Positions 10,944-57,202 of a stretch of 64,000 nt of DNA are shown here, one piece after another. The notes under the pieces are model-generated. The model was not told the DNA's origin. It did not search any database and saw only the letters and a list, made by a program, of their open reading frames with translations. A program made the translations under genes and the position numbers. Each line of letters starts with the position of its first letter. Position 1 is the first letter of the stretch. Location of the stretch: assembly GCA_001692895.1 (NCBI GenBank), contig KV748200.1, forward strand, positions 2,058,914-2,122,913, given 5' to 3'. Origin of the DNA: Cenococcum geophilum 1.58 (taxonomy: Eukaryota; Ascomycota; Dothideomycetes; Gloniales; Gloniaceae).

Positions 10944-13040
10944 TTTATTACGTGGGAAACTGTATTAAGAAATAGAGGCTTCCTTTATAAGCAAGGCGAC
11001 CTTACTTATTAACCCCAGCCAAGCTAAGGCTGCCCCTCGACCTCAACCATAAAAGGCTATTTCTCTCGCTGCTTTTCCTCTTATCCTTTATCTTTCCTTT
11101 CTCCTAACACTACGCCTCCTCTACTTACTGCTAGTCCCTAACACGGTTGCATTAAGGCATTTCTGCCGTCCCCTTAGCGCTTATGCGTATATAAGTCCAG
11201 CCTACTTATTACTTTATTCCCCCGTGTTTTAGACTAATAATTAATATAGTTAACTACGGCCTTTCCAATAAGCGAGTCTCCATCCTATAATAATATATAG
11301 ACGGTCTTAACCTCTTCTCCTAATTCCTGCCTCTAGAGCTAATAGCTTTAATTTTTATTAAGCTCTTTTAGCGCCGCCTCTATCCGCTAAGCGCGTCCAT
11401 ATCCTTATAATTCTATTCTCTTTCTTATATACACCCTCTCTCCTTTCGCCTTCTAGATAATACTAGTCCGTAACCGTCCCATAGGAAGGTGGTTAGGGGA
11501 ATTCCGCAGTTACTAGCCGCGTCAGCACTATTGTCTTATTTAACTCTGCCGCATATCTCCTTCTAAGGTAGGGAGGGACAGGCTTACCACATCGCCCCCC
11601 TTAAGGGCTTAAGCGAGCTTACGTCGCACTTATTTTAGCTAACCTACGCGCTATTTTCTTACCTAGGATATGCTATTAGTTAGACAGCCCGCTTTAGCGT
11701 TTATTAATAGCTAAAGCCACCTATATTACGGCTAGTATACCTACTAGGCTAGCTAGCGGAAAAGTAGCTAGAAGTTACTAATTTAAGCAACCACCCCATA
11801 CAGGGCTGTATTAGGTATTATTTAAACGGATATTATACGGAGCGTCGCCTAGGCGGCTATATATACCTACCTAGTAGTATAGTTATATTACTACGGATAT
11901 TTCGGAGATGCCGTTTAATCTACTAGTTTAGGGCTAAGGGGCTATTAGCTCTACCTAACCGCTTAGCGGTAAAGTAGTAAAGGATTAACGATCTAGCCTT
12001 CTAAGCCATAGGGCTATAGTAAGAACCACCTAGATTAAAATTAAAAGGTTATAGCTTTTGGGCGCATAATAGATTAGCGGCACCGCGGTATAACTATAAA
12101 GGAATCTCTAACACTAGCTAGCTATGTTAAGAGGGCGAGCATTATGCAGCACCTGTGTAGCACCCTATATAGTCCTTTACCTAGCGCATTTATACATCTA
12201 TATATAATTACCGTGCGAGCGGCAGGCATATCTATTACTAGGCTGTTAGCATTAGAGAGCCCTACCCACTACTAATAAAGACACTACCTTCTTCTATTAT
12301 AGATAGCTCGTAACGCGTACGTATAAGCGGGGCTCTATATCCTATTAATATAAGCGGCGTAGAAGATTAGCTAGATTGGTATTATTGGGAAGTAAATAAA
12401 TATATTAGCACTGCCCTTTACTAAGAAATAAGGGTAAAGAATTTAAGCCACCAACCTCCTAATAAGGGGCTAGATGTGACGGCTATGTTAAAGCTAAATA
12501 TACTAGCTCGGATAGGCGGATACGGTTTAATTGCAATTTACTAAGGGTATTAATTAGGCGCTAGGAATTTAAGCCTTATAAACCTTTATACCCTATAAAT
12601 AGTAATTAACCCCGGTTTATGCTAGAGGCGTATATATTAAATACTTTAATTTAATAAGAAACCTAGGCGAGGGGTAAGGGGTAAGGGGTAATAGGCGAGA
12701 GCTAGCGGCGAAGGGAGGACTAATATGCACTTAAAAAGACCTTTAATTCCCCCTTAAGCTTTTAAAAGTTATAAAGTAATAGCAACTCTAATAATAACAA
12801 TATTAGCACCACATTAGTCTTTATTTTATATCCCTCCCAAAATTTTACTTAATAATAATAATTTCTACACTAGTCACCCTAGAAGATTAATAGCTTTATC
12901 TTAGTACTATATAATTACAGCCTTTAAGAAAAGCGCGAGTAGTAAACCTAAAAGGAGAAATAGGGGAGTACCTCTTTTCCCCCTAAAAAGTTAAGAAGTA
13001 TTAAAAGCTTAGGCACTTAATAGTATATTATTCCACCTAG
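10944..13040. other. Distal end of the Starship-like element, no gene recognised
   Basis: This stretch would be the 3' end of the element. It is somewhat richer in C and G than the rest. No domain, RNA gene or further element end was recognised on either strand. Confidence 0.4.
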
Positions 13041-13049
13041 AGCCTTAAT

Positions 13050-14770
13050 TTAGAGATTCCGTCTAATAAAGCGCCTATAGACCCTATATATAATTATAAG
13101 AAAGCTTATAATAAGTATTACAAAAATAATAAGGATAACGAGGATAATAAAGAAGATTTCTATAGGAATAGAAATAACAGTTAAGTCTCTAGGGGAAGTA
13201 GTTAAGGTAATTATCCCAATAATTATCCTACCACTCTTCCTCTTTCCCTAGTAGTTCCAAATATATAGTTTTAACAACTAGTAGCAAATCTAATAGTTAT
13301 TAAAGATAATACAGCCAATCTAGACTTAGAAGTTAAGGGCGATAAAGCTAGTAATACTAATAATAAAGCTAATGAAGCTAGTAAAGCCAATAATCGACCA
13401 ACACCTTATAGATTAGGTACGCGCTTCCCCTTTTAATTTATAATAGCCTTATTTAACAATTAGTAGATAACTAGAATAATAGCAGTAATATGGATAATAA
13501 AGACGATAAGAAGCTGCCTTTATTAGAAGCGCTAGAAAAGGAGATACGCGCATCTATACGCAATTATACTATACCCCTAACGCTGGATAGCAATTAAACG
13601 GATAATTTAGCTAAGGGGCGTCGCATTAGAACTGCTCCGCAGTTTAGGCAGAAGCTTAGGACATTAGTAGCTACTAGTTAAGAGTCTTTAAGAGCCAAAA
13701 AGTCAAAGAAGTAAAGGTCTAATTAGCTTAATTAGCTAAATAGCATTAATTATATCTCCAATACTTCTATTAGTAAGAGTAGCGAGAGTATACAACCTAG
13801 GAAGTAATAAAGGTTATCTACTTCCTAGAGGACCACGCCTTCTAGCTCTTTTACCCTTAGCCTTAATAACAGTGACGGGATTAAGGAGCGAGTAGCCTCT
13901 ACTACGCGGCCCACTAGCTCCTCCCCTCGGCACTGTATATCTCCTCGCGATACTAAATTACTAGAAAATAAGGCTAATAAAAGTTATAATTATATTCTAG
14001 ACGATCTTATTAACGGCTTAGCTGAAGAAAGCAATAATAAAGATGGTAAGAATGTTATAGATAAAGGTAAGGCCGAGAACTATAGCGATAGAAGTAATAA
14101 TAGTGATAATACGGATAGTAACGACTTTAGGGACGATAATAGTAGCGATAGTGATGAGGGTAATGAGGCCTACGGGTGTATAGGGCGATAAGGATTACTA
14201 ACCCCTATTACTAGTTAATTAAAGGTAAAGCGTGCTATAAAGTATTATCTCTAGCAGTCTTACTATTCCCCTTTAATTTTATCTACATATATATCTAAAT
14301 AAAGTACTATACTTACTAGCAATTATTATAAGTGGGTTATATCCCCTATATATAATCGCCTCTGTATCTAAAAACCGTTACTAAGCCCCGCCTCTGGCTT
14401 TAACTCTAATAAAGCGATACTAGGAGCCGCCTTAAATGCTAATTCGGAAGAAATTTTACTTTAAGTAGCTTTTAGGCGCTAGAAAGACGGGCTATATATA
14501 CTAGATATCCTTCCTTAACAATTACCTTTACCTTTTAACCTAGTTAAGCAGCTCTAGGAGCTAAAGTCCAGAATAAAATTTACTAAAGAGGAAGACGCGC
14601 TGCTTATTAAATTAAAAAAAGGATATAATCTTCTATATGAATAGATTAAAGACCACTTTCTAAAAAGAAGTCTTAGATTACTATGGGCATATTACTATTT
14701 AAAATTAAAGGCCTAGCCTGCTGCGTAGAAAAAAGGGGGCCAACCTACTAGGCAGAAGAGATAGTAGTAA
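13050..14770 (+). pseudogene. Myb/SANT-domain protein, RIP-degraded
   Basis: The N-terminal two thirds read as Asn/Ser/Asp-rich low-complexity sequence, ending in an acidic Ser-Asp-Asn tract near 14090-14170. Near the C-terminus (about 14575-14710) is a SANT/Myb-like unit: F-T-K-E-E-D-A-L-L-I-x-L-K, then I-K-D-H-F-x-x-R-S-L, where the Trp residues are replaced and the three-helix pattern remains. Fungal proteins with a disordered N-terminus and one C-terminal Myb-like domain occur as lineage-specific multicopy families and are presumed DNA-binding. A short basic tail follows. Many TAA/TAG codons interrupt it, and exact ends are uncertain. It lies near the distal end of the Starship-like element. 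Confidence 0.5.
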
Positions 14771-15985
14771 TTATAGTGCCCTTCTTTCTAGTTTGGAGAT
14801 CTCTTTTTAGCCTTAGGTTCTACTTCTAGCTTATTCTATTTATAGCGCATTTCCTATAACGTCTTATAATTTCTAATTTAAGAAAGTTAAGCCTTTATAA
14901 ACTATATAGAGCGCTAATAAGTAAAGGGATTTAGGTATACGTGCTAATAAAGTGTTATAAGTGTTTATAAGTAATTTAACTAGATATCTGCCGGCTATAC
15001 TATATATAATCGCCTAATCGCAATATCGCCTGAAGCCGTAAGCTTAAGGGCCGCATAAAAAAGTCCGTAAGAGCATTACTTTTTTAAGGGTGGTAAGTAA
15101 GAGCCACTTATTACCACTTATAACGCTATAAATAATAAAAAATATAAGGCTAAAACTACGTTTATAACCTAGCCAGCTAATTTAAATTACGTAATATAGC
15201 AGAAATTAAGCGGCAATCCGAATAATATAAAGTCAGGCGTTAATAATTAATTAACTTATACACACAACGTAAAGGCGCATAAACTGCTGCAGAAACTTAG
15301 TTTTTAGTTAATTTGCCTTATTAATAAGAACGAGCCACGAGAATCCAATCCTTGGAGATATTTTAGTTGGTAGAGGGCTATATATATCTAGTAACTCCAA
15401 TATATAGCTAAAATACGCGTCATAGCGGACGCCTTACCCGTTTTACTATTTAGCTAGTGGCCTAATTATATACGTAATATTCTGCGCTAGAAAGCTTTAA
15501 TAGTAGGGTAAAGTAAATCTAGCAGCTTAGCCTAAGAGGTAGCTACTTAGCAATTCTCTTATATAAGCCTTCCCGTTAGGCACTAATAAGTAAGCAGCCA
15601 TAAACCTATTAGCTGCAGCAACACCTCTATTTTCCCTTATAAATTTCCTTTAACCCTACTTCGCTAATTGTTTATAATATAGTTCCGTAAAGCCGCTCTC
15701 CGTTTTAGCCTACAATCTACCTCTTTTTATATTTCTTATATTTGACCTCTTATAGTTATCTAGCAATTCTATTCTTACTATTAAGGTAAATATTAGCTTA
15801 GCCATTCTACCCATATAGCATGTGCCTAATTATTTACATCTTTTATAATAGTTATACTTTAATGCGCATGTGCTTTATAGCCTTTTATTCTAAAACAAAT
15901 TCCTAAATTAGCCGCTATTCCTTCTTAGACGGCTATCTATAATTAAGAACTCTTTATAAAAGATAATATTTACTTAATATTTTAC
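14771..15985. other. Stretch without recognisable gene
   Basis: RIP-degraded sequence. A run resembling a tRNA A-box (TTTTAGTTGGTAGAGG) occurs near 15360, but no tRNA fold follows. Confidence 0.35.
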
Positions 15986-15989
15986 GTTT

Positions 15990-17700
15990 ATAGAACACCT
16001 CTCCTTTATAGCCACTAGTCCCGCTAACTTTCGCGGTTACACTTCTAGCTACACGGATTATATCCGCTAAGGCTAGGGATAAGGCGCTTAGTAGGAAATA
16101 AGAGGCAATTAGAGCTTATAAATTTAAGATAATAGAGGACATAACTCTAACATTTAAAGGCATATTATATAATATTAAAGATAGTAAAGGGAAGCTAGTT
16201 AAAGCTTTAGGTATAAAAAATAGATAAGTAATAAGAGAGGTTCTTACTAGGTATAAATATTATATAATAAGGGTACGGATTAAGTTAGAGAAGAGGTAGT
16301 AATAAGTAGTAATCTAAAGCAATATATACCATTTATTTATAGATAAAAGTTAATCTCTAGCTTCTTTTATAGCATTTTTTTTAAAACTCTAAAGTATCTA
16401 GGTCTCCTAAACCGAATAAATTAGAGATATTTTACCTATCCTTATAGCCGATCCTAAGTACTAAGAGAGCATCCTTATTATCCTCTTTTAGCATATACAC
16501 AGATAGGCAATTTATAACCGCTAGTCCTCCACTCTTCTTTTCCTTTCTCTATAAATTACTAATCCTTATCCCGGTGCGAAATGGCTTAGGGAGGTTTTTA
16601 ATTATATAGCGCCTTGTAAATAAAAAAGAATAGTACTAGCTTTACCCTAGCAATATTAAATGTCCTATTAATATTAACTATAAGCGATACTTTATTAAGG
16701 GTTATTTATAAACCTAGAATCTGCTATAATTCTAACTAGGGACGCTTTAATAATGGTTTATCTATAACTTAATAATACGCTAGTATAGTGGCGCTAGAAG
16801 GACTCTTAGGAGAGGTATTTATCTTAGATAAGCATTAAACGCACTAAATTTTAGAGAAAGGTGTTTAACCCTTTTTTTTAATTGTTAAATAAGAGGGTGC
16901 TTTCTTTATGTAATAAATCTCCTTCTAAGATAAATAAGCAGTTAGTTAATAAGCGTTTAAAACTAGCATACCGAGCGTTTAATTCGCGTTTTAGGAAAGT
17001 AAAGCTTTAGAAAGCCTCTCCGGTAACTAAGCATCTTTAATTAATATTAAGTGTTCCTCTAATAAGAATTATTAACAATTCGTTTAAAATAAAAGGCCTT
17101 TTATACCTGTGAAAAGATTAATATCTAAAAGAGGATGTTTTTAAGATAAAGTACTCCTTGTGTCTAGATCCGTTTTATAAGGTTATAAACTAATAGCTAG
17201 TAAATACGTCTTAGATAAAGGAGGATACGTACTTTATAATTGGCCTTACTCTATTAAGAATTAGTAATAAAGTTATTTAGGATAACAGAGTTTCTCTACT
17301 AGTAGTAATAGTTACTTATAAAAACCGACTTTTCTAAGACGACGAAATTAAAGTGCTAATTAAATTGGCCTTATAAAGTTCCTTTACAACTACAGCTAGT
17401 CCTAGTAGGTGCGGGGCAGTCTCCTACTAACTTTAAATTTTAGGTAAGCGTATCTAAGGCGCTATTTCACTTAGCTTTAAGATAGATACTACTAAGGTAA
17501 ATAAGAGGAATACTTTAGGACCTAAGGATTAGAAAACATCTGTTAAAAGTTTACGTACTTACAGCCTCACACTATAATATAATAATAATCGCTTTACTAA
17601 CCTTTCCGTATCCTCTCCTAGTAAATCGCAATATAGAATTCTAGTTTAAGAGTAATAAACTTATATCGTTATTAAATATCGCTAATTCTTTTCTAAGTTT
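15990..17700 (+). pseudogene. Unidentified RIP-degraded coding region
   Basis: Plus-strand translation through TAA/TAG gives protein-like sequence for much of this span. It starts with a basic segment rich in Lys, Arg and Ile (about 16080-16310, including K-G-K-L-V-K-A-L-G-I-K-N-R). Long Leu/Ser/Lys segments follow up to about 17560. I do not recognise the family. No membrane segment or known catalytic motif stands out. It sits between the Myb/SANT and AAA+ pseudogenes on the same strand, so it is probably cargo of the Starship-like element. Confidence 0.35.
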
Positions 17701-17744
17701 TTTAATTAGCTAGTTATTTTATTCTATAAATTTTAAGGATATGG

Positions 17745-17880
17745 TAAAACTAAAGATGGGTAGATAGGACGGAGATAAGAAGAATAAGAGGGAATAGGAA
17801 AAACGGGAAGAACAGGAAGGAGATTTAAAGGATAGGGTAGGGCGGGATAGGCGAGATAGGACGAAATATAGCGGAGCCTA
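17745..17880 (+). repeat. Purine-rich low-complexity tract
   Basis: A G/A-rich tract made of GGA, GATAGG and GAAGA-like words (for example GATAGGGTAGGGCGGGATAG). It would encode Lys/Glu/Arg/Asp-rich sequence if translated and may be a disordered linker or a degraded simple repeat. Confidence 0.5.
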
Positions 17881-18659
17881 GCAAGTTTAGACTAATTGCG
17901 GCGGCACACCTACAGTTATTCCTATTCTGTATATACTCTTTACTTTAATTAAGACATCTACCTAGCTTCTATGCATTAGGTCTATAGAATTTATATAGCC
18001 TAAATAGGTAATAGGGCCCCAATTATATTCCTTTCTATATTATTTCTAGTTTAAATAATATTAGATAGCTATAAGCCTCTACTATATATATAACTGCGTG
18101 TCTATTATATATCCTTTCATATTACTCTAGTGCTGGAACTAAGATACCGAATATAAGCCATAGTTCTGTTTCTGTAGTTACGGTAAGACTATATACCTTT
18201 ACTTAGTTAAGTTCTATACTACGTTAGATATAATATTAATATAGCGTCTCCTAGAATAAATAAGGGGAAGTATTTATATAGTATAAGGCGGGTTCTAGTA
18301 AATATTCGCGGTATAGTAGTAGCTTAGGTCCTATTAAAGGGTATAAAAAAAGGCGGATCTTTTAAAGAAATGATACCATCTATACTTAGCTCCTTACTCT
18401 AACTTTATACTTTAGATTAGTATTACATTACTAAAGCTTTATAGAGTAATAATGCCAGTTACATCTAAGCTAGTTACGCTAGCGCCTTCGCTACCTTATA
18501 ATAGTATAAATATACCCCCCAATAGCCTAAGCTAAACGTATCCGTATTATAGGCAGTTAGCGCAGCATCTTATAGTTAAAATACTCGCAGTTATATTAAA
18601 GATAGTTTAAGCGGCCTAATCCCCTTACCTTCTCTACCTTCTCTACCTCCCCTAAGTTT

Positions 18660-20900
18660 AGGGGTTAAAGAAATACCCTAAGTAAGAGGCTCCAAGGTTG
18701 AAGTTAAGGTATTAAATAAGATGTATACTCGCGAAATCCCCAAAATATACTTAGAAATACGCTAATATAGCGTCTACTATAGCTAGGATAAATAAAGCTG
18801 CCAGTATAAGACTATAGAGACTTTACCGGATATATTAAGTAAATATAACATATATAGTTAGTATATTTGTATCCTTTAGACGAAATTTAGTCTATCTCTT
18901 AGGTGCCTTTAAACATATTAACTTAGATACTAACTTTTAAGCTAGAAAAGGATAAGAAAGACTATAGCACGTACTTAGGTATAAATTTAGGAGAAGTAAA
19001 AGACGCCTTATAGGTGGTGCTAAGCGGCATATAAGCTATCTCCCTTTGGGAAGACAAGCCTATAGTAAGTAGACCTTTTTATAGATATAGCTTATTCTAA
19101 TTTAACTTCTAGATCCCTATATACCTTATATTTAATTTCCTACCCTAGTTAAAAATATACTAGGAGAGTTTTTCTCCTAACTTAATTAGCGCTAGGCACC
19201 TTTAGGGGTTACTAAAATTCCTTAAAGACTATTTCGCGCCTATAACCAATAGTCTCCTACCACTTCTAGACTATAGCGAAATTAATTTTAATCTTCTTTA
19301 GGCCTTATTTAAACCAAATACATATGTCCTTATAATTTACGAAGGCTTAGATTAACCAAGATACCTTATATATAATTTAGGCAACTTTAAAACCTTACTT
19401 TTTAGCGAAAAGAGCTTTAAACTTAACTGTTACCATTTTAGCTATAATAGGAAGGCGTTTAGCGAGGTAAAAACCACCCTCTCTATTTCGGAATTCCGTT
19501 TAACTATAAAAATTATATCTCTTAAGGTATTTCCGCTAGAGCGTTATAAGAGATAAGCCGAGATAAAGCAGGTTCTTATTAGTAATAGCCAGAAGTTCAT
19601 ATCTTTAAGAGGCATTAACCACCATAAATATAAAGGGATCGCGTTTTTCTGGACTAAAGATAGCCCGTTAAGATTTTCTATAAGCGGCCGCATTATGGTA
19701 GACGTAATAGCATTTTATTATTAGAATCCTAACTATGGCAAGCAGCTAATTACTATAGATGCGTACGGAATAAACGTAATCGATTAAGGGACTAATTAGC
19801 AAGGGGATATAAAGAATTAGGGTTTAGTTCCTAAGGAGATAGGAGATAATAAGTACCTAATCTATCCACTAACAGCCCTGGCCTTTAGTTTAGTAGATAA
19901 AAAATAGGGTTAGGCTTTTTATATACTTTTTCTAGAGCTAGCGAATTATATATACTAATATAAGCACTAATAGGTGAATTTGCCGTCGCCAATATTAAGG
20001 ACATTAAATGGAATGCCTTAGTATTTAAGTCACTCGCAATTAAGGAGGATAAGAAAATAGTACTTTAAGGACGTATAAAGAGCTACTAGTCTAGGTCCGG
20101 GAAATCAAAGTTTAATAATATAATTAAAGGGAAGGGGAAAGGCCTAGTTTTCTTACTACAGTAAGTTTTCTGGTAAGGCATTAGCTATTTTAAAGGCTAA
20201 CCGTTTTAGTGGGTAGGAAAGACATTAACAGCTAAAGTACTTGCTAAATCTTAGAGGAGATTCCTCTATATAGTTTATTTCCCTTTATAAGTGTATTTAT
20301 ATACTAGTTTAACTATAATAAGACTTATATGGGAGACCTTAATATAGATCTAGCCTATTTAGAACAAAACCTAGCTCTAATAGTTAAAAACGTTTACTAC
20401 TAGAGCGCTGTCCTTCTTCTAAACGAGGCCGATATCTTTCTTATAAAAAGGACTTTAAATAATATCTAATGTAATAGCCTAGTATCTGTCTTTTTATAAT
20501 AAATGGAGTATTTCTAAGGTATTATGTTTTTTACAATAAATAGAATTACCGTATTTAATGTAGCTATATAGAGTAGAATATATCTTATACTTAAATATAA
20601 CGAGCTAAAGAGACTAGTAAAAGAGTAGGTGTAAAAGACCTTCCTAAAGTAAGCTAATACTACTGCTAATATCTCTAAAAAAGATATAGAGCGGCTTTTG
20701 GACTATTAATTAAACAGAAGACAGGTAAGGCAATATTTAAGTAAGAGTTTTAAGGCTAGTGCTAACATACTATGTTAGATTAAGAATACTATATAGATTG
20801 GTTACATCTTAGCTAAAAGTAAAGGGGAGAAACTTATATATAAGCATTTAAGAATAGCTCTTACATTAAACTAAAATTTTAAGAGTAACTTTAAAGGCGC
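18660..20900 (+). pseudogene. AAA+ ATPase with N-terminal DUF7025-type domain, RIP-degraded
   Basis: The N-terminal half (to about 19990) matches the fungal DUF7025 pattern, including G-I-A-F-F-W-T near 19650 and I-S-G-R-I-M-V-D near 19690. The AAA+ module follows. A Walker A remnant W-V-G-K-T-L-T-A ends near 20235. Walker B is L-L-L-N-E-A-D-I-F-L at about 20412-20441, where the canonical Asp has become Asn, a G-to-A change. The sensor/arginine-finger region F-F-T-I-N-R...S-R-I spans 20530-20580. A possible intron remnant (GTAAGT ... TTTTAG, about 20161-20208) lies at the P-loop. Such ATPases form expanded families in Pezizomycotina; their partners are unknown. TAA/TAG stops inactivate it. 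Confidence 0.75.
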
Positions 20901-21059
20901 TAGATTAGTTAAGAATTTAAACTTATATACGTAGATTTGCTTATATATATATAGCATTAAATACATCTTATAGATCTTATAGCTAGTAGCATTATTACTT
21001 ATTACTTTTTTTAAAATTACTTACTTACTTTTGTAATAATAAGGCTATACGGTAGGCTA
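20901..21059. other. Spacer between ATPase pseudogene and minisatellite
   Basis: Short AT-rich spacer that may include the degraded C-terminus of the ATPase. Nothing else was seen. Confidence 0.35.
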
Positions 21060-21800
21060 TAGCGTAGGTAAATTGCTTATAGATTTAGGAATAGGAGAAT
21101 AGAAGCCATAGGGCATTAGTTCCTATAGGGGAGTAAAAGATATAGGCGTTAGTTCCCGTAAGGAACTAAAAGCTATAAGGCGATAGGGAAAGCGGGTATT
21201 AATCCCTATAGAAAACCACAAGCTATAGGAGATTAGTTTTTATAGGGGAGTGGAAGAAATTGCTATTAGTTTCTATAGGGGAGTAAAAGCCGTATAGAAG
21301 TAGGAGCTATAAGATATAGTTCTTATAAAGCAGTAGAAGATACGGTTACTATATATAGAAACGGAATTTATAGGGGATTTATTCCGTAGGGGAGTAGAAG
21401 ATATAGTTAATAGTATTTATAGATCTAAAAATAGGAGAACGGAAGCCATAGGGTATTAGTTCCCGTATAGGAGAGGAAAACGTAGCTATAGGATCCCGTA
21501 GGGGAATAAAAGCCGTACGGGAATATAAGCTATAGGGGATTAGTTCCTATAGGGCGGTAAAATATATAGACATTAGCACCTATAGGGGATTTATTAGCGG
21601 AGGGGATTTGTTACTATAGGGGATTTATTAGAGTAGGGGATCAGATTCTATAGGGGATTATTAGGAGTAGGGGATTGGTTTTATAGGGCGGCGAAATATA
21701 TAGGCATTGGCTCCTATAGGGGATTTATTTAAGTAGGGGACTTATTTAAGTAGGGGATTGGCTAGAGTAGGGGATTAATTCTCCTATAGCCTTTATTTAG
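21060..21800. repeat. Degenerate GGGG-core minisatellite
   Basis: Irregular tandem units around TATAGGGGATTAGTTCCTAT and GTAGGGGATTTATT recur dozens of times, with unit lengths of about 14-45 bp. The sequence is strand-asymmetric, with runs of four G on the plus strand. It lies directly downstream of the AAA+ pseudogene. Confidence 0.8.
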
Positions 21801-21914
21801 ACGGCATAAGGCGGCTTCTAATAGGCTAGAGAGTAGGTTGCGTGTTTTATAGAAATTTAAAGCCTATATAGAATAGTAGGGTATAGGGGCCTAACGGAAG
21901 ATTGGGTTATCCGC

Positions 21915-22018
21915 TTTCCTAGGTTTATTTAGCCTAGGTAACTCGCCCTACACTATTTTATATACGTTTTAACTAAGGCTACTACTTAACCTTAGTCGCC
22001 TAAATCCTCGTAAAACTT
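21915..22018. repeat. 104-bp direct repeat, copy 1
   Basis: Begins TTTCCTAGGTTTATTTAGCC and ends GTAAAACTT. The second copy is at 22062-22165, after a 43-bp spacer. Where the copies differ, this copy mostly carries T or A (TAGGTAAC versus CAGGCAAC). Confidence 0.85.
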
Positions 22019-22061
22019 AAACCCGTGTAGTAAAAGAATATAGGAAAATAAAATAAATTTT

Positions 22062-22165
22062 TTTCCTAGGTTTATTTAGCCCAGGCAACTCGCCCTATAC
22101 TATTTTACATGCGTTTTAACTAAGGCTGCTACTTAGCCTTAGCCGCCTAAATCTTCGCAAAACTT
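22062..22165. repeat. 104-bp direct repeat, copy 2
   Basis: Same length and ends as the copy at 21915-22018. It keeps more C and G, including CAGG, CATGCG and GCTGC, so the two copies were mutated to different degrees. Confidence 0.85.
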
Positions 22166-25730: not shown

Positions 25731-25739
25731 ACAGCGTAA

Positions 25740-26515
25740 TATTCTATTAAGTAGTATAAGGACGCAAGACGACGGTCAGCGAGAATCACTTTAGTACGCT
25801 TAATAGCAAAAATAGGCTAGTATAGACGCTTTATAAGTAGCAGAAGAGATATTCTATTAGCGGTATACGAGATAACGATTGGTAAGGATTACTTTAGCAC
25901 GCTTAATAGCAAACGTAGGCTAGTATAGACGCTTTGCGAGTAGCAGAAGTATTAAGAAGTAGAAGAGATGTTCCGTTAAGCGGTTTAAAAACACAAGATA
26001 ACGGTTAGTAAGGATTACTTTTATATACTTAAGAGCAAAAATAGGCTAGTATAGATGCTTTATAAGCAGCAGAAGTATTAAAAAGTAGAAGAGATATTCC
26101 GTTAAGTAGTTTAAGAACGCAAGATAACGGTTAGTAAGGATTACTTTAGTACACTTAATAGCAAACGTGGGCTAGCATAAACGCTTTATAAGTAGTATAA
26201 GTATTAAAAAGTAGAAAAGATGTTCTATTAAGCAGTATAAGGATATAAAACAACGGTTAGCAAGGATTACATTAATACGCTTAATAGTAAACGTGGGCTA
26301 GTATAGACGCTTTATAAATAGCAGAAGTATTAAAAAGTAGAAGAGATATTCTGTTAAGCGGTATAAGGACATAAAATAACGGTCGGTAAGGATTACTTTA
26401 GTACGCTTAATAGCAAACATAGGTTAGTATAAACGCTTTATAAGCAGCATAAGTATTAAGAAGTAGAAGAGGTGTTTTGTTAAGTAGTATATAAATATAA
26501 GAAGCGAGTTATAGG
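25740..26515. repeat. Tandem repeat, about 124-bp unit, six to seven copies
   Basis: Units contain GGATTACTTTAGTACGCTTA, GGCTAGTATAGACGC and AGAAGTATTAAAAAGTAGAA in constant order. Unit starts fall near 25797, 25900 (after a shortened first copy), 26025, 26152, 26276 and 26402. Differences between units are mainly C/T and G/A, as RIP would produce in a tandem array. Confidence 0.85.
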
Positions 26516-43060: not shown

Positions 43061-43329
43061 GTAGAGCCTTAGACCCTTAAAGGAATTTAAGGACGACACC
43101 TAAATCTAAAATTTAAATGGTAAGATTAGCAGTTTAAAGCATTGGTAGATAGTAGAGTAACGAGGAACTATATATTACTAGTAGTAGTTAAAAGGATAGG
43201 ACTACTATATAGAGAGAAGGAGCACCTATATCTACTAGTTACAATTTTAGGAGATCTAATAGCCTATAGAGGAGGTATTATTAATCTTAAAATAGGACCT
43301 ATTTAGTTAACTATTAAAGGGAAATAAAT

Positions 43330-46300: not shown

Positions 46301-46390
46301 AGTAAGGTGGATAGGCTATAATAAGACTACCTAGGAGCCACTAGAATATTTAAAAAACGCTATAGGAAAGGTACAAGAGTATTGGAAGAA
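43330..46390 (+). pseudogene. Gypsy-2 Pol (protease end, RT, RNase H, integrase, chromodomain-like end)
   Basis: The protease end A-I-L-G-M-P is near 43375. RT spans about 43700-44330, with F-V-L-K-K-N-G-K-L-R near 43780 and active site V-Y-L-N-N-N-I-I-Y at 44101-44128, where Asp pairs have become Asn. The connection G-F-C-N-Y-Y-R-R-F-I is near 44357. RNase H (about 44520-44850) includes K-T-D-A-L-D and Y-N-I-Y-N-K-E-L-L. A linker follows. The integrase core starts near 45340 (x-D-F-I-I-K-L) and holds T-D-G-Q-like sequence near 45650. A chromodomain-like E-V-R-W-I-G-Y-N lies near 46300-46390. The 62-codon open frame at 44615 is an RNase H remnant. Confidence 0.9.
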
Positions 46391-46399
46391 AATAGGTCA

Positions 46400-47122
46400 G
46401 GTAATATAGATAGGGAAGGATTGCTAAAAAACAAGTTACCTAAGGGGGACCTAGGAAGAGCGACTGCCAAACTACTTAGAGTTGTTTCCTTTGCTAGTAG
46501 AGGAGAGTTAGTTCTCTTATTACTAAGTTCCTGCAGACCTTATTCTATAAGTTTCTACTCCTTAAAACGGACCTTCTTATAAACTTTCTTAAGACGAAGT
46601 AGATAGGTAGACGCCGTAATATAAGTATCTAGGGCCTTCTGTTCTATATCCTAAGAACGCTTAAGCTCTATAAGGGCCTATACTAGGTCACCATTAAGCT
46701 TTATAGCAGTAGATTAAATATAAGACCCTATAACAAATTACTTAGGGAACTTAGAGACTATTAAGGATTATAGAATGTATATACTTAGCGTTAGAAGAAG
46801 AGCGAACATCGCAGGACGATTAAATATTTGCTTTAGTGCACTCTAAATAAAAGGAGGGTTATTAAGACAAAGGATTTGCTAGCGCGATATAAACTAACCC
46901 CTCTTTTATACAATAAGAATACGGAGATAGTATTATTTTACTAAGTAATAATATTACAGCAATAATACGGGCACGACGTTGCGTGTATAAAAAAGAAGAA
47001 GGTGCTTTAGGTATTATAAGCAACGATATTAACTAAGTTAATTAGACGGATATTATACCTCTAGTAAACAACTTAGAGATACTAGGTATCTTTAAGGACA
47101 AAGATAAAGAGAAGGGAGATAG
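46400..47122 (+). other. Gypsy-2 3' untranslated region and polypurine tract
   Basis: Sequence between the end of Pol and the right LTR. It ends in GAGAAGGGAGATAG, the likely plus-strand primer. A 66-codon open frame near 46382 has no recognisable content. Confidence 0.6.
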
Positions 47123-47543
47123 TGTTACGGACGCTTTAAGTACAATATTATAACTACTTAGAGAGGAGTTAGAAGAAGCTAGTTAGTTAATATAGGTATG
47201 GTCTAGGATGGAACCGGTAGAACTATATAACGAGGAATAGTAGCTAAGGTTACATAACGTGCTATATATTAAACGTAAGGAATAAGAGGAACTTACGTAC
47301 CTTACGTATAATACGTACATTATATATAAGGAGGATTTCATAGGAGTACAGTTGTGTATTTAAGGACCCTTAGTCCCTACCTAGATAGTTCCTTCCTTAT
47401 AGTAATTCTTAGAATATAATTGGAGTTAATCTATTAGGCAACCACTCTACTAGTTATTATTACGTTGTTGACTTCCTGCAATACCTATATACCTAGCCCA
47501 TTAACAGGACCTACTGTAGTTCCTGGTACAAGGTTCCGTTACA
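47123..47543 (+). repeat. Gypsy-2 right LTR (421 bp)
   Basis: Starts TGTTACGGACG and ends GGTTCCGTTACA, followed by AGTTG. It is less mutated at its 3' end than the left copy. Confidence 0.9.
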
Positions 47544-47548
47544 AGTTG

Positions 47549-47660
47549 GAAAAAAATTTTTTTTTTTAATGGTAAGATGGGTATGTATGAGTTTTGGAGT
47601 GTGGCGCTACCTTTTAGTAAGGTTGCATGTGCGGTAAAGCTTTTTTATTAGTTTTTATAT
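47549..47660 (-). mobile_element. 5' remainder of the Tad-like LINE, displaced by gypsy-2
   Basis: An A-run/T-run block and TpG-rich sequence follow the right target duplication. Excising gypsy-2 places this directly upstream of the leader of LINE ORF1 on the minus strand. It is poor in RIP changes. Its outer end is not defined. Confidence 0.45.
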
Positions 47661-48590
47661 AAGGGTGCTAAATTAACATAGGCCTTAAGTCTGCTTTTAA
47701 TACGCACGTAATTCTGCCGCCTTAATTAAGCCGTGTATATACTATACCTAAGTATCCTTTATATGCATTGTATACAACCTATAGGCAGCAGCGTAGTGCG
47801 ACTAAGGTGATAATATTTTAGAAGTAAGGCGGTTTATCTAAGTTTTAGAAAATGATTAGATAACTTAAGAACCTATAGCTATCCTATAAAATAGTAGGTA
47901 GGATAGATAGGTTACTTTAAGTAAGTACATTATATATATTAAAGGCTTTAAAATATATTAGAAGAACCTTCTACTGCCATTTCTATAATCTAAGCTAGCT
48001 TCCCTAGTTACCTCTATAAGCTTCTCTATTACAAGAGCCCTTTTTAAAACAGTAAGGTCGCCTCTAACTACTTAAGCTAGATCCTTTACGGTAGCTTTCC
48101 TAGAGCCGAACTTCCCATTAAAACCCTATAGCTCCTTTATATTTATACCTAGCCGACTTAATAACTATAAGATAGGTTTTATAGCCCACTTTAACCATTC
48201 CGCTAACTATTTTAACGTTTATAGCTCACCCCAACCAACTATAACGTAAGGAGCGCCTTTAGTCTCTTTTATTTTAACCGCAATCTTATATATTTTGCCA
48301 TTACCCTATTTATAACTAATAATTTGGACCTATTGCATTATTTAGAGAGCTTACTTAATCTTATTACGGTTAAACTAATAATAGGCGAATATCCAATCCA
48401 TTTTAAGATAAGTTTGTCTCTAGCTGCACCAAATATAAATTACGTTGGCCGATTATATTTAGTCTAAACCCAACCGTTATAGTCCGGTGCCGTCTACTTT
48501 AGCAAAAAGTTAAAGATTAACTCTATAATCCGTTTAGTAAGCGAATTAGATAAAATATACCTTTAAAAGTATAAAAAGGTTAAGAAGGTT
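47661..48590 (-). pseudogene. Unidentified RIP-degraded coding region
   Basis: Minus-strand reading through stops gives protein-like sequence in about 47940-48330, with G-W-G-E-L, F-N-G-K-F-G-S-R-K-A-T-V-K-D-L and L-K-R-A-L-V-I-E-K-L-I-E. It looks like a conserved helical protein, but I cannot name the family. Confidence 0.35.
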
Positions 48591-51400
48591 AAATATAAGA
48601 AGGTTAACTTATTAGAAATTTGGCTTTAGGTAGTGGCCTATTTATATATTAATTGCTAAAGCCCTAGCATTTTATTTAGTCTTATATCCTCGCACCTATT
48701 AGCCGGAATAAGGAAGGATATATATATCTATATAGGGAAATACAGGTTAATTATTGGATAATAAGAGCCGCTAAAATGTTTAGGTATAGTATTCTAGACT
48801 ACCTAGTTAAATTATGCTATAAAAATAATATAGCAAATAAGTTAGCTTCTAATGTGCGCGATATCTATCTTTATATATTAAGGCTTATATATATACTAAG
48901 CATTTTCCTACTACCCCTCTATTTAGATAAAGCTAGTTATATAACTAAAAAAAACCCCACTTATCCTAGTTTACTAAAAAGTATTATCTATACTTATTAT
49001 CAATTACTTAACGGTAACTAGGCTGTATAAAGCGGTAAGTAAGACCTCTGCTAGGATCTTAGCAATACTAATACTAAAAAATGCCCTTCCTTAAATATAG
49101 TTTCTGCACGGTCGATCTAATACGGCAAAATTCCTTATCTTTTTCATTAGAACCCTTTTACTCTTATAGACGCCACTTATGCCTAAATATTTACATTAGA
49201 TCGAACTAGATACTAGCAATATAATTAAGAATATCTATAAGGTGCTAAAGAAGTAGGAAACTACTTTTATACCATTCTTAGAGCCAGGTATAGAGAAATA
49301 TACGTTAAAGGAAGTAGATTAGGAAGTTTTGCACTTTTATAAAGTAGCTTAGCTAAAGTTATTCGCAAAGGTAAGTAGTAAGCCATTAAATTATACGTAA
49401 TCTGCTAATAATTTAGCAGCCTCTATAACGCTAGGTCATTTTTCAATCTATAAAAGAGGATGTATATATAGGAACTTAAAGAGATTAGTTTATCATTCCT
49501 ATCTAGGTCTTAAAGGCGCCTATATATATTACTAATAAAAGCACTAAATAGTAAGTAGAACTGACTTGTGGGTATACTATCCTTTATACTACCAGTAAAC
49601 TAGCCACTATTGGCAATAGGGTGGTATTTCTTATCCTATCGCTATAGCCGGTCTAAAAGAAAAGCCTAGTAGGTAGCTTATGGCTATAGTTTTATATTAA
49701 GATTTATAAAGTCCAATGTTTTAAAGAAGTTGTATTATAGCTTAAAGGATGTAGGGAATTTATTAAAGTAGTTATATTGTAGTTTAAAAAGTCTATAAGG
49801 ATCCCTAGCGTAGAAGGGACTTCGTTCTACGTTAGAGTTAATAATTCTCTACTTATTCTATTATCTGGTATAGCTAAACAGCTCTTAGCGTCTGTTAGCG
49901 GAGTAGATAGGTTTAATAAGAAACTTTTAGGTCCATTCTTGGTGTTAGACAAGACTATTATACCTTTATAATATGCCTTTTGCTATATAGGGTTTATTAG
50001 AACCCCTAAGTTACCATAAGTTACTCCTATCTAAATTTATAGCTAGTTTTTACTAAATAGTCCGTTTAGCCTAGGTGTCTACGCCTGCTTATATACGTCT
50101 TCCTTAAAGTTAGGTACTGGTTATAAAAGGCATTTACAATAGTACTTACCATATGGTATACCTCTTCCCTTATCCGTTAAATTTAATACGTTAAATGGCT
50201 AAGCCCTATTATCTTTATGGCCTAGTAATAGATTATATAAATTATTTTTGGGATTTCCTAATAAGAAGTTAGAATTTCCTTAGATATATAGTTTTACTTA
50301 CCCTTACTAGCGCTGTTTCTAGTAGCATATCTATATACCTCCTATATATACGGTATTAGAGCGGCCTATTAAAACGTAGTAATAAGATTTACTACGTTAT
50401 ATTAGTCTTACCTTATAGTGCTGGCACTCTACTCTACTAAAAGTGAGTTTCCCTTATCTCTTTAGATTTTAGGTCGCCTAGGTTACCTGCCGTTTAGTTA
50501 CTTAATGGGTTCTGATCTTCGCTTTAGAGCTTCCGGAATCTAATTAATCGCTTTATACGTAATAGCCGTAGTAGCATCTAGTAAAGTTAGTATCTATACT
50601 AAATTATAGGGATTTTAACTATATTAATGCCTTCTTTAATTAAGCTCTCGGTAAGTATATAATATTCTTTTAATATATCTAAAATGCCCGCAGCTTTAAG
50701 GGCTTAAATTAATTCGTTATAGTTAGAACCCGCCTTTAAGAACTTCTTTTCCTATCTAAGGTTACGGTTAGTATATAAATAACTACTATTTACTACTAAA
50801 CTTACACTCTATCCCCTATCTTTAAAGGAAGGAAGAATAAGACACTAAGCCCTCCTAGCGCCTCCCTAATTAAGCAGTATTTACTTCCACCAGTAATAAA
50901 ATCTTCTATCTTTTTAGTAAAGTCTTTAAGTAGGGTTTTAGTATTTAAGCCAATTCTATAGAAGTCTTTAGCTATTAAGCTCGCCGTATATTTATCTTTT
51001 AAGAGCTTTTATAAAACTGCTTAACTAAATCTACGGAGGAGCTAGTGGTATACTTTCTCTGTTTTAAGAACTAAGTAAATAAAAACGGTATAATTAAGCG
51101 GATTCCTAAGGAAGCGCTTCTAATTATCTATATAGGTTTTCTCAACTTAAGGGTTCTAGAAAGCCGTCTTTCCGGCTTAAACTTTAGTAAGAAATATTAT
51201 AACTTTAGGGTTAGGCTTAGAACAGTATATCTTTAACAAACTTAATTACAAAACACCAGTTTCTTTAGAATTAACCCTAAAAGTTATTTTTTTTTAATAA
51301 AAGATTTTAACTTTAACTTAGCTTTATAAACTAACTTAAGAACTTTATTTACGTTTTAGAGTAACTGCAAAAAAGCTTAGTAAAGAGGTAATATTTATAG
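48591..51400 (+). pseudogene. Unidentified large RIP-degraded coding region
   Basis: Plus-strand translation through TAA/TAG gives convincing protein-like sequence. Examples are F-L-E-P-G-I-E-K-Y-T-L-K-E near 49270 and the Val/Leu-rich run with G-V-D-R-F-N-K-K-L-L-G-P-F near 49900. The main frame changes at least once, so there may be indels or introns. No catalytic motif or membrane region was recognised. An 81-codon open stretch starts at 48776. It faces the captain gene's strand and may be cargo. Confidence 0.4.
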
Positions 51401-51449
51401 AATAGGTAAACTTACGCTTAGCTCTAAAAGCGCTAGCTCTTTTTATGCT

Positions 51450-54000
51450 AGAGCAGCTCTAAGTTTCATAGTAATATTAATTATTTTATAGGTGTTATAA
51501 GAAGTCCTAATAATAAATAGTAGGCAAAACCTTTTACTTTAAGCAATAGTAAGCTAACATAAATTTGGGGCACCAAAAAACCTATAGGTTTTTTAATGCC
51601 CTAAATCTATACTAGTGTAAAGTAACTCCTCCTATATACTAGCCTCCTCGGCAACGCGTCCCTAAAGAGTTAAATTAATTACTTAAACTGGATAGACGGG
51701 AGATTTCTAGGATAAGTTAATATAAGCCTTAATTAAGGTTCTATACCCTAAAAGCCTTTCCTACTAGGAACTAATTAGATTCTTCCTATATTCCTATAAG
51801 AATTAACTTAATCCTAAATCTAAGTAGGTACTTTAATATTGCTTTACTAATGGCTTAACTATATTAAGCCCGGGTTCCGTTTACTATTACGAAACTTAGG
51901 GCTTACTAGTAAAGTTATAAGACCTATAGGCTAACTAGGCTAAGAATATAGTTACTTTCTTTTCTTTACTATAATACACACTCCTCTACCTACAGCTACT
52001 ACGTACGTTTGTATAGTGTTTATTTATTACCTTATAATTTTCTGTATTGTCGCCCTATGGTATTATAAGCTATAGCGTCTTTAATAGCATCTTGTCTTTA
52101 ATATAGTATTTCTTTTCCTTATCCCCGGACTCGTAGTTACTACCTTAATTAGGTATATAAAGCACTAGATTATTTATCTACCTTAGGATATACTATAACT
52201 AATAGCCATGCTGCTAAGATCTTTATTAGCGATTGTATTAGCTGCTAAGGTTTATAAGGCCGCTATACTAAAGGAACTTACTAATAGGAAGCTAGATCTA
52301 ATCTCTATAAGGTTTTGTCAGCATATTTATAAAGGGCCACTAGGTAGTCCGCATTACTATTCTTCTTACTTTTCTACTCTAGGGCTTAGATATTAGGCGA
52401 TTCTTCTCTATATCGCGCTAGCTACTACTATACCTTTTAATAGCAGTAGAAAGTTTTCTAGTGTATATCTTATTTGCTATAATTCCAGTCTTTAAAATAT
52501 AGTAAGTGGGCGCGGAATAATATGTATAGAATTAAAGATCATTATAAGTAACCTTAAGGGTCGGAATACCTAGCATTATTTTAGCTGTAGCAGGTATAAT
52601 CCTTCTTGCTATTTATTAGATAGATTACTTCCTCCTAGTAAGCAAATATATAGCCTTTAAAGACATCCACTAATAGAGGCTAGGGGGAGTGCATTATAGT
52701 ATATCTTATAATGTTTTCCTTAAACTGCGCAAGGGTTTTAAATTATATATCGTAGGGTATTCTAATAATTAAAGACAGTAAATCCGATATTTTATTTAGG
52801 AGGGACGGCTAAAAATAAAACTACATCCGTCCGTTATCTATTTAAGTATTTATTAAAAACTAAAGTGGACTATCTACGCCTTATTCTTTGGGACTTCTTT
52901 ATTAACTTTACTCTTAATTTTATATCTTTATCCTGAACACCCTTATTCTTATTAATTTTTAAATATTTTATCTCTGCCATTATATGTTGCAAATTATATT
53001 TTTATTTATTATTTATTACTGCGGTATCCGTAGCTGTAGTGCTGTCTATAGTATCTGGGGTATTTATGGCGGTATCTTAGGCGGACTTTATAATAGATTT
53101 TAAAAAGGTGTTCCTAGCCTTACTAGTAATATTTATGGCGGCGTTAGAGGTAGCTTTTATATCTGCGATAATAAGGTCGCTTATAATAGTTATAGTAGTC
53201 TTAAATCTCTTCTTTTAATATTTCTTAATCCCCCTAATCGTCCCCTTTAATCTTCGTTTATAAAGATATAAAGGAGAATAAAGTAAATCTGCTATAGCCT
53301 TTATATCTTTATAGCTAGAACCAAACTTATTAGCCTTCTTATTATAATAAAACGCTATTACCCTTACTATAAATATCTAAAGTAAAACTAGAACGTGAAA
53401 TAGTAGGACGCCTTACGCTTTAAATAGAGTATACTTCTTTCGTAATAAAGACAGAAAGTCTATATAGAATTAGTCTTTAAAACCTAATACTTAATTTTAT
53501 AAACTATATAAGCATAGCTTTTAAAGTATAAAACGCTATTTAATATTATATGCCTTTCCTTGCATACTAGATAGCTATAGGGAATTTTTATATTTAGTAT
53601 AAATAGATAGAGATGTTTATCTTTAATATAATCCATTATTTTAGCTGGCCAACTCCAATAGAAAATCCTCTGCTAGTAAGGTAAACGCTTATTACCCATA
53701 TAAAATAGACTGGCGAGGGTTATATTCTAAAGGGTATAAATAAGGCGTTGCCAAATCTTCCTACTTTATAGTTACCCCTTTTAACGAGTTAAGAGGCGTA
53801 TTTCGTTGTTAAGCCTCTTAACGTAAGTATAACTTTATAAAATTTTGGATAAAATTAATCCGCTAGTTAAGGTATACTAGCTCCGTAAGATCTTTATCTA
53901 TTCTATTAAATACTAAAATAGGATTAAATAATAACAGACTAAAATAAAATAAAAAGCGATAAAGAATAATAAGATAAGCGCGTAATAACTAGGAAAAGGT
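51450..54000 (-). pseudogene. Unidentified RIP-degraded coding region next to the captain
   Basis: Minus-strand reading through stops is protein-like over most of the span. It may be one or two proteins, or partly the C-terminus of the DUF3435 gene just upstream. Near 53040-53200 it is Thr/Ala/Ser-rich. No domain was recognised. In Starships the genes next to the captain often travel with it, so position alone suggests cargo. Confidence 0.35.
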
Positions 54001-54049: not shown

Positions 54050-56600
54050 TTATTAGTACTAGAGGGACAGCATAGGATTTTTATATAGGTAAGGCGACTT
54101 ACCTAGCGGTGCCTCTTAATTAGATGCTATACGCTATACGTAAGGGCTATATAGTTTTTAAAATACTTAAGTCCTTTAATCTACTCTAAATAATAAAGAT
54201 GCTTATAGTCGTACCCCTACCTAAACACTTCTTCTGCAACGTAATTATTAAGATACTTTTATAGTATATCCTTCTTTATAAATAGGCGGGTCTGCCTTAC
54301 CATTAAGAGTTAGTTATCGCCGATATAGATAAAGTAAATAAGATTAGTAAACGTTATAGGATATAGTAACTGTATTATCTTAACACCCTCTTTTTTAATT
54401 AGGACCGCGATCCGCGTCTTATTTAGGTTTTCTTAAAAAGGCGAATTTAAGCTAATCTATTCTTTTTACCGCTTTACCTATTAATAGGTGCCAGTATCAG
54501 TATTACTTACACCTTTTTTTACACCTATTATACTTTAGTTTACTTTAAACCTAAGTTAAAATCCGATAGCCTTACTTGGGATCCCATTTTACTAGCTCTC
54601 TTATTAATTATAATACTTAATAAAATTGCGGATAAACTTTATACGGAGTTTTATAGCGTGCCCTTCTTTAAGCTTATTTAGCGGCTAAGATAGCAATTTA
54701 GCAATAGCAGTACGTTCGCGAAATTTATACTATATAGCTAAATAGGTGGGAATATCCGTCCCAACGCTACTACTAAGCTATCTTTTAATATTATAATCGT
54801 TAATAGCGTTATAAAAATTAAGAATAACCTAGTCCTCTTTTCGTTTATATAGGACATTTATAATACTATAAAGTTTATATCTGGCTTCGTTGTAACGGTT
54901 ATATAGTTTTATTCCCTTTACGGCATTAATAGGGTAATATCCCCGGCTCCTAATTTTTTACTTATATCGCTCTTGTTTCTTATAAAGCTATAAAATATTA
55001 GAGTGTTAATTAAGTTTTAACTAAAATTTAAGCTTTTACTCGTTAGTTAGACCTATAGGGGCCTACTCGTCCCTTAATATCCCTATCTATGCGGTATATT
55101 AAATAAGGTTATCCTGTAATAAAGTCCTAAAGTAAATTAACTGGAAATTGCGCTTAATTAAATTAGGTATATAAAACCGTTAGTAGGTATTGCCGTAATA
55201 ACCTATTATCTAATTTTGCTCTTCTAAAGTAAGGGCGCCTAAAAGACTTAGTTAATAAATACACTTATATTAAATTAAATACTTACTGTTTAATTTCCTT
55301 TTAGACGCTCGTCGCAGCTAGTAAAGCTTAAGTAATTATTTAAACCCGGCCACTTAGCCTAACTATATATAGTAATCGCGGCATTTCTAGTAAGGGAATG
55401 CTTTAATATCTAACACTCCCCTATAACTAGCCATTATCTTAATATCTTAAAAGATAGGTCGTTTCTCTATCCCCTTCTTAAACTTTACTTTAAGACTCTC
55501 TTTATTTACTAGGATTTTAAGTCTAAAAATCTCTTCTGGTAAAGTATAATGGCGTTAAAATATATTATCCGCAATAGTAAGGCCTATAAGATAGGATAGG
55601 ATATAAAAAGCTAGGATGCTTTTAAGACGGAAAATAAACCTCTTACTACAGGTCTATTAGCCCCATTCGTGCCGTCTTTAGTTAGCGTTATTATATACTA
55701 TCTACCTATGCCTTTAGAATTCTTAATATGCATAAAACTTACGAGGGCGAAAATTATAGTTTAATTAAAGTTTTTTATATCGCGAACTTTTAGGATTGTA
55801 ATATGTTTATATAAAAGCGCTTTATTAGAGCCTCTTACGCTTAAACTTTTGATAAGAGCTTAGGCTCTTATTGCTATAGCACTAAAGAGGAGGAGGATTG
55901 CTCCCATTTGCACTTAAAAATAACTATAGTAAGGCTTTAGGTCTATTACTAATAGGCATTGATAATTGCATATAAGTCCTGCATATATATTATATCCTTT
56001 TCTTTTTTTAATATATCTAACTTATATATTAGCGTTAAATAGGGTAGAATCCACTATAACAAATTAGCTAAGTTTTTTTTTTTTAATTGAAGATCGCCCT
56101 ATATCTTGTATATTAAGTTCTACGCTATTATTTATACTATAGCCTGCCACATCTATAAATTTATATAGTATTCGTCTCTAATACGCCTAAATTATGCTTT
56201 CCTTCTTAATTTAAGAATTCTTTATATGCTATTTAAGGTATGTTTTAAACGTATCGGCCGCGCACTAACGAAGGGCTTTAGTTGGGTTAGACTTAACTTT
56301 TAAGTAGAACCTAAATATAAATTATTAGTACTATAAGGTGAATTTTAGTTTAAATATAAACGAACTTTTCTTAATTCCAAAACTTATATTTAATAAAAGA
56401 AGTAGAACAGGGCTTCCGTTTTAACTTTACTCTTTTTTAGCCCTTATAATACGCAATCCTCTACTATAAATATTCCCCTTTAGAATTGGTGTCTTCCCTA
56501 GCTCTAGAGTTAGAGCTTAAATCTAAGTCTAAAGCTGGCTTAGAATAAGATGGCTTACCTAGTTTAAAGTCTAAGCTAGAGGCTAAATCTATATTTCGCC
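54050..56600 (-). pseudogene. DUF3435 tyrosine recombinase (Starship captain-like), RIP-degraded
   Basis: On the minus strand an N-terminal helical region (about 56450-55950) leads to the recombinase core. It shows I-R-A-x-A-L-I-K-S and V-R-G-S-N-K-A-L-L-Y-K near 55880-55815, the box I arginine region of the family. An L-R-R-A-S-K-R-K-L-N motif lies near 55320-55286. The C-terminal catalytic block I-G-Y-Y-G-N-T-Y-x-R-F-Y-I-P is at about complement(55156-55207), where the first Tyr replaces the expected His and a Tyr in R-F-Y is the likely nucleophile. Downstream are the coiled region with R-E-R-T-A-I-A (near 54720) and the degraded C2H2 fingers (I-G-D-N-x-L, F-I-K-K-D-I-L, H-F-K-N-like; about 54330-54130). 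These enzymes cut and paste the whole Starship. TAA/TAG stops and the His-to-Tyr change make it inactive. Confidence 0.75.
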
Positions 56601-57202
56601 ATTTCTTACTTTAAGAGGGTATAGTGGTTAAACGCGTAGTATCTTAGTGCTCTAGTAGCTGCTAATTGCCTACACGTAGAAGCTAGCTTAAGAGTAACTG
56701 CTATTAATAGGAATATTAAGAAAGGCTTTACGGAAGATAGGCGTTTTTAAGAGCAGGACAGGGGGGAAAAACCCCGTAAGTAGAACCCTAGAAATTGAGT
56801 ATTAGAAGTAAACGATATAATAGTAAGGGAAAATGCATACGTAGCGACTGTGGGAAAAGGGTTAAAGGAGCGTAGTGTAGAAGGGAGGTTCGTTAGGTAA
56901 GAGTAGTACTTTTAGTAAAGGATAAGGACGATAGTGGAAATAGGATTAAGTAGGCGGCAAATGTTTATAGTTTCTTAAATAGCCGCTAAGGGACGTTTGG
57001 GGAGCTTCAAGAGGTGCGTTATAGGGCTACACGCGCGCTTCTAGGTTTAGTAAGTAAGGGAGACCCTACCGCCCTTAGCACGCTTAGTATATTGCAAAAG
57101 TGGCGATAGATATGGGTCTAAGCGAGGAGAAACTGCCTCCTGAAACGGGGGGTAGGAACCTCTAAATCCGGCTGCGTCTTCCCTAATAACAAGATTCTAA
57201 AA
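56601..57202. other. Right edge of the Starship-like element, upstream of the captain
   Basis: About 600 bp between the captain and the GTTAT repeat. This would hold the captain promoter and the recombinase-recognised end. It is richer in G+C and G-runs (for example AACGGGGGGTAGG near 57145) than the interior. No TATA box or terminal inverted repeat could be assigned. Confidence 0.5.

Follow-up and report, generated by a model that had tools for sequence, protein, structure and literature searches.

A stretch of 64,000 nucleotides from the Cenococcum geophilum 1.58 genome (C25:2058914-2122913; hereafter, the window) contains a Starship copy, that is, a giant element with a DUF3435 recombinase ("captain") gene near its 5′ end. 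The element is one of a high-copy Starship family with dozens of closely similar copies. The sequence very strongly suggests that it was inserted by its captain at an ATWACT(N)6A-type site in the integrase gene of a Gypsy retrotransposon and inactivated by repeat-induced point mutation (RIP). All copy, captain and cargo counts given below refer to this one genome (a single strain; 177.2 Mb in 162 contigs). The whole window is AT-rich with a RIP-type dinucleotide bias (TpA/ApT 1.5-1.9; (CpA+TpG)/(ApC+GpT) 0.3-0.5). The features on which the interpretation rests are the following:

6502-10943, + strand: host Gypsy element, left part, with reverse transcriptase, RNase H and integrase zinc-binding domain (limits of the stretch scanned, not the mapped end of the element)
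10938-10943: left (3′) direct repeat, AGTTAT; on the captain strand it reads ATAACT, as does this edge of every paired copy (36 of 36)
10944-57199, − strand: Starship copy delimited by paired end matches, 46,256 bp from one conserved end to the other
54091-56640, − strand: captain relic (DUF3435) with many stops; Pfam PF11917 match at 54766-55614, E = 9.4e-19
57202-57207: right (5′) direct repeat, AGTTAT, the sequence common to both sides
57208-58200, + strand: host Gypsy element, right part (limits of the stretch searched, not the mapped end of the element)

Insertion site and ends

The left half of the interrupted Gypsy element matches RVT_1, RNase H and the integrase zinc-binding domain, the last of these stopping about 130 bp short of the break. 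The sole match in the right half is a weak, Tf2-1-like SH3 domain below cut-off. Copies of both flanks abound in the genome (994 candidates for the left flank, 10400-10943, and 949 for the right flank, 57208-58200; 40 of each were scored), and in several copies the two flanks abut exactly at the window's break point. Each of 13 distinct Gypsy copies fetched (14 loci, L003 and L012 being one place) runs through this point uninterrupted and carries AGTTAT once, representing the empty site within the same genome. The continuity of these paralogous copies therefore indicates that one Gypsy element was cut in its integrase region, and bears out two proposals of the first-pass annotation, namely that a single clean insertion split the element and that the two halves belong to one family. 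Another copy of the Starship family (C16:616334-653981) occupies the same site in another copy of this Gypsy family.

The captain relic starts approximately 560 bp inside the right end of the segment and points inward, as had been proposed. Because the captain strand is minus, the 5′ end of the copy is at position 57199. When the first 1200 and the final 1200 bases of the insert were used as queries, matching ends turned up at other places in the genome and often shared a contig and strand. Degenerate 35-base patterns, allowing up to 3 mismatches, gave 50 left-end and 50 right-end matches genome-wide; the same patterns read backwards as a control gave none. Joining ends that lie on the same strand within 130 kb produced 36 pairs, as compared to about 0.9 expected by chance. 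With the ends aligned in the 36 paired copies, the conserved borders of the window copy fall at 10944 and 57199; the earlier claim that both ends are defined thus stands.

On the captain strand, the 5′ edge has the form ATNNCT-NN followed by the first bases of the element, TAGAATC. The hexamer is ATAACT in 21 copies, ATTACT in 10, ATACCT in 3, ATTCCT in 1 and ATCCCT in 1, so that ATWACT is found at the 5′ junction of 31 of the 36. The 3′ edge is followed directly by ATAACT(N)6A in every paired copy, with the A at +13. If copies whose flanks resemble each other are counted once, the number of independent insertion sites is 31 with a strict criterion and 28 with a loose one; given flank composition, the probability of an invariant A at one position across 28 sites is about 4e-12. 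Counted from the T of TWAC, the site reads TWAC(N7)A, the Hephaestus-type form, which is present at the 3′ junction of 36/36 copies and at the 5′ junction of 31/36; strict TTAC occurs only at the 5′ junction of 10 copies. Two variable bases (57200-57201 in the window) separate the 5′ end from the right repeat and are AC in 23 of the 36 copies. As the window copy (TT) and the C16 copy (AA) differ here while sharing the same Gypsy site, these bases do not derive from the target. Such a variable pair is reminiscent of the coupling sequences of some bacterial integrative elements.

The first-pass annotation had read the repeat shared by the two edges as GTTAT. The repeat itself is real, but it is one base longer (AGTTAT). 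Reading GTTAT as the target duplication of a long terminal repeat (LTR) element was rejected because AGTTAT is fixed at the junction in 36/36 copies and the ends lack TG...CA. Also rejected was a TTRTTR likeness near both ends as a candidate terminal inverted repeat (TIR), as it was no better than in shuffled ends.

A family of RIP-mutated copies

The paired copies span 27.1-111 kb as found, the shortest being 27-28 kb, and the window copy contains relics of FunK1 and DUF7025 genes; Starships are expected to measure roughly 20-700 kb and to carry cargo genes. With 36 end-to-end copies, the element is no lone fossil but one of a high-copy family, a point that the first-pass annotation had missed. 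A captain match lies on the expected, inward strand in 35 of the 36; in 31 of these 35, 1.88-2.03 kb separate the 5′ end from the start of the captain's C-terminal part. In one copy (C33:1227566-1304372) the captain region escaped RIP: approximately 4 kb are un-RIPed (GC content of the first 4.5 kb, 0.46) and the last 389 codons are open. Upstream, the N-terminal half changes frame several times, and this gene was therefore rejected as an intact captain. When its 389-amino-acid (aa) stretch was searched against the genome, with 106 of 106 candidates scored, 100 matches were obtained. Fifty of these, at 45% identity or more, correspond to 49 family captain loci (C104 appears twice), a count that leaves out 8 second fragments of broken copies. 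Only the C33 locus is free of stops over the stretch; the others have 11-36. In a genome search for DUF3435, in which 100 of 346 candidates were scored, there were at least 165 matches, counted exon by exon and falling in several families; among those listed, the only stop-free stretches are C49:753315 and C33:1229663.

Divergence was estimated separately for the left and the right end, each time from the 66 pairs formed by the 12 best-scoring stretches, one of which is that of the window. The mean is 0.5% for transversions (0-1.3%), as against 11.2% (left end) and 9.6% (right end) for transitions. Over 2145 bases, the captain of the window copy departs from the un-RIPed C33 captain by 142 transversions, 404 C>T/G>A changes and 76 transitions in the reverse direction; the change is highest in CpA, where 71% of cytosines are altered. 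These transition-dominated differences and the C>T/G>A excess agree with the RIP damage originally surmised. The simplest reading is that near-identical copies were mutated by RIP afterwards, C33 being a more distant relative; we infer that amplification would have preceded most of the RIP.

Taken together, the data are best explained by the following scheme. A DUF3435 tyrosine recombinase encoded at the 5′ end would insert the element by site-specific recombination, presumably through a circular intermediate, at an ATWACT(N)6A-type site, here in the Gypsy integrase gene. The family would have reached dozens of closely similar copies within a short time, and RIP would then have mutated them; a Copia (27321-33088) and a Gypsy (39750-47543) LTR retrotransposon later inserted into the window copy.

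Membership in the Starships is well supported. Some observations weigh against the scheme. No TIR beyond chance was found at the ends (the best score was reached by 696 of 2000 shuffles), and passages of one study report TIRs for 18 of 20 Aspergillus fumigatus Starships (PMC12153272). In Starships generally, such repeats are frequent without being a constant feature. Fourteen left and 14 right ends have no partner. The 5′ hexamer differs from ATWACT in 5 of the 36 copies; the C-terminal part of the captain lies 2.7-10.2 kb from the 5′ end in four, and one pair (C3:747244-783576) has no captain match among those listed. FunK1 is not among the matches listed for 9 of the 36 pairs. Finally, because the copies sampled for divergence are the most window-like, the family-wide transversion figure may be higher.

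Could most copies be non-autonomous and depend on a handful of active captains acting in trans? Of the family's 49 captain loci, all but one have stops within the 389-aa C-terminal frame, and even in the exception the upstream part is frame-broken, as this model would have it. The captain match is nevertheless still in place in 35 of the 36 paired copies and the captain stops look like the product of later RIP, making the model very unlikely. It is highly improbable that the element, rather than being a Starship proper, is a large tyrosine-recombinase DNA element of another kind, Crypton-like or otherwise, whose neighbours were gained by chance. The enzyme class is the same, one DUF3435 element was initially called a crypton (according to part of PMC9594970), and the window element lacks TIRs. 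Against this, even the shortest copies measure 27-28 kb, the captain comes first at the 5′ end, the kinase relic recurs in one orientation, and a site of the same type has been published for Hephaestus. That segmental duplication of chromosome regions, rather than transposition, accounts for most of the spread, as the flanks shared under the loosest rule might suggest (window/C16/C33, C97/C41, C5/C13/C33, C7/C22 and C13/C87/C26), is scarcely credible given 28-31 independent flank contexts and the existence of empty Gypsy sites; the window and C16 copies can be explained by two hits in one repeat site, because the host Gypsy family is high-copy.

Anatomy of the window copy and cargo apparently shared among captain types

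The interior of the window copy was compared with that of the 27.1-kb C89 copy (L081-L083), with which it is colinear in blocks. The internal features are:

10944-14909: conserved 3′ segment, 85% identical to the C89 copy, no Pfam match
19257-19544, + strand (opposite to the captain): DUF7025 relic, a profile match in the variable cargo block 14910-21413
22529-23708, − strand (captain strand): relic of a FunK1-type fungal protein kinase (PF17667) in two frames, 22529-23353 and 23502-23708
27316-33093, + strand: later, nested Copia LTR element (element proper 27321-33088), target duplication ATAAG, RVT_2 E = 8.7e-22
36625-36993, + strand: weak protein-kinase-like stretch, E = 0.0025, below the Pfam cut-off
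39745-47548, + strand: later, nested Gypsy LTR element (element proper 39750-47543), target duplication AGTTG, RVT_1 E = 8.1e-18
50000-52000: post-captain block, full length also in family copies C33 and C8 and at loci C50 and C83

Of the two copies compared, only that in the window has the two LTR elements (the Copia element, in particular, is absent from the C89 copy). They are flanked by 5-bp target duplications and account for 13.6 kb of the 46 kb. Their removal leaves about 32.7 kb, close to the size of copies C67, C104 and C45 (31.8-32.8 kb). Hence, of the 46-kb giant element first proposed, the span holds whereas 46 kb as native size was rejected. A segment built from several unrelated insertions would have spoken against a single Starship; the two internal boundaries that were resolved are those of later insertions and leave this reading intact. 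The idea that the cargo consists of degraded genes is likewise upheld by the FunK1 relic, whose main part matches with E = 4.5e-39, and by the DUF7025 relic. The cargo block beside the 3′ segment measures 6.5 kb and includes DUF7025 in the window, as against about 10.3 kb in the C89 copy, where the parts scanned gave no Pfam match at the thresholds used. At these thresholds, Pfam scans also returned nothing for window positions 10944-15900 and 49000-53950, nor were there matches in 37900-39749 (four frames) and 47544-49100 (all six frames).

Two repetitive tracts were noted inside the element. One is a 126-bp tandem array (25739-26502), mostly missing from the C89 copy; the other (21092-22165) consists of minisatellite-like repeats rich in TATAGGGGATT, with a strong GC skew at 21-22 kb.

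The kinase relic recurs alongside the captain. A genome search in which 107 matches were scored of 226 candidates placed FunK1 in at least 27 of the 36 pairs, and in each of the 27 it shares the captain's strand; the window's own relic was not among the matches listed. Of the remaining 80 matches, 41 lie within 60 kb downstream of a DUF3435 locus of a second kind, class B, 40 of them on its strand. Among the matches listed, the 41 on the downstream side of class-B loci compare with 4 on the upstream side and 1.8 expected. Class B is our own grouping of the DUF3435 matches listed, by the span of the profile matched, and comprises 66 loci. The family captain stretch matches 12 of 12 family loci and none of 20 other DUF3435 loci fetched (E threshold 1e-3), only 4 of these 20 falling in class B. 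In the genome-wide search with this stretch the sole class-B locus listed is C49, matched weakly (E = 1.5e-5). The family captain stretch barely matches class-B loci and, therefore, class B has a very different captain.

At C49:752543-753905 (L061) lies a DUF3435 locus that RIP has spared and whose 389-aa frame is open. It is followed, 45-65 kb downstream on the same strand, by two FunK1 matches (C49:799048-818552; L065) in long open frames, one of 580 aa, with one stop inside the match, and one of 799 aa, with none. Together these loci possibly constitute a younger captain-kinase element.

A search with window positions 18000-20000 (40 of 96 candidates scored) located the DUF7025 block in at least 21 of the 36 copies, window included, and in at least 19 other places. 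Of these 19, ten follow a class-B captain on its downstream side, arranged as in the family (at a distance of 55-60 kb in three cases), and three are close to left ends of the window's family that have no partner. A third tier of captains is formed by 32 matches of the family-captain search with E values up to 4e-16 and 28-41% identity. Six of the 32 have FunK1 within 40 kb downstream, invariably on the captain strand and, in three cases, at a distance of 17.90-17.92 kb; upstream there are none among the matches listed, with 0.6 expected. Third-tier loci C50 and C83 share the post-captain block (50000-52000) at 86-87%, a block whose full length occurs within the family only in the window, at C33:81545 and at C8:1323121. 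A 360-base piece of it (51636-51996) is found in at least 17 further places, a count that leaves out shorter, more distant matches; all are near class-B captains, 15 of the 17 in the same arrangement.

The kinase and the DUF7025 block thus recur at high copy beside at least two, probably three, captain types. Because FunK1 and DUF7025 also follow other captain kinds, the cargo appears to be shared across captain families; the sequences are compatible with movement of either the captain or the cargo. One could tentatively picture high-copy Starships built on a common FunK1/DUF7025 chassis that captains took over in turn, several captain families having amplified in bursts faster than RIP, although we consider this rather less than an even bet. 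The chassis might perhaps serve as a replication, defence or maintenance module.

Comparison with known Starships

Starships are known above all for the adaptive genes that they carry. In the present genome they offer dozens of complete copies with precise ends at some 30 independent sites and a clear record of RIP. This makes it possible to ask, in one place, how an element with a cut-and-paste recombinase multiplies, what it requires of its target and by what route cargo passes from one captain to another. Two findings were unexpected, namely the number of copies and the cargo common to several captains. Such a copy number and RIP history are unusual for this kind of element. According to passages of PMC12153272, a given strain of A. 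fumigatus rarely has more than one copy of a Starship; copies are said to build up in other species, a process that RIP is thought to keep in check. In an open-access literature search, Starship and Cenococcum were both found in PMC13041039, named separately in the portion returned; in a separate search of the same library, FunK1 did not occur in the papers listed.

The closest parallel is offered by Starships of the Hephaestus family (captain HhpA; Nebuchadnezzar in A. fumigatus), which resemble the present elements in the 5′ captain, the short direct repeats and the type of target site, given as TTAC(N7)A in its canonical form in the sections of PMC12153272 that deal with it. Assignment of our captain to the Hephaestus family is suggested by the target site only. 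As far as that source describes the A. fumigatus elements, the present family differs from them in its 36 end-to-end copies and 49 captain loci, its FunK1/DUF7025 cargo and the fact that no TIRs were found. Giant captain elements hit by RIP have also been described as "derelict" Starships in Paecilomyces variotii and Spiromastigoides (excerpts of PMC11623301) and in Gaeumannomyces GtA (excerpts of PMC12134995). In these accounts derelict elements appear singly or as strain sets, whereas here dozens within one genome share their ends and target motif. Lastly, Sanctuary and Horizon, two otherwise unrelated Starships, carry the same cargo, ToxTA (excerpts of PMC12506042). There the shared passenger is a small transposon; here it is a kinase and a DUF7025 block that recur beside several captain types.

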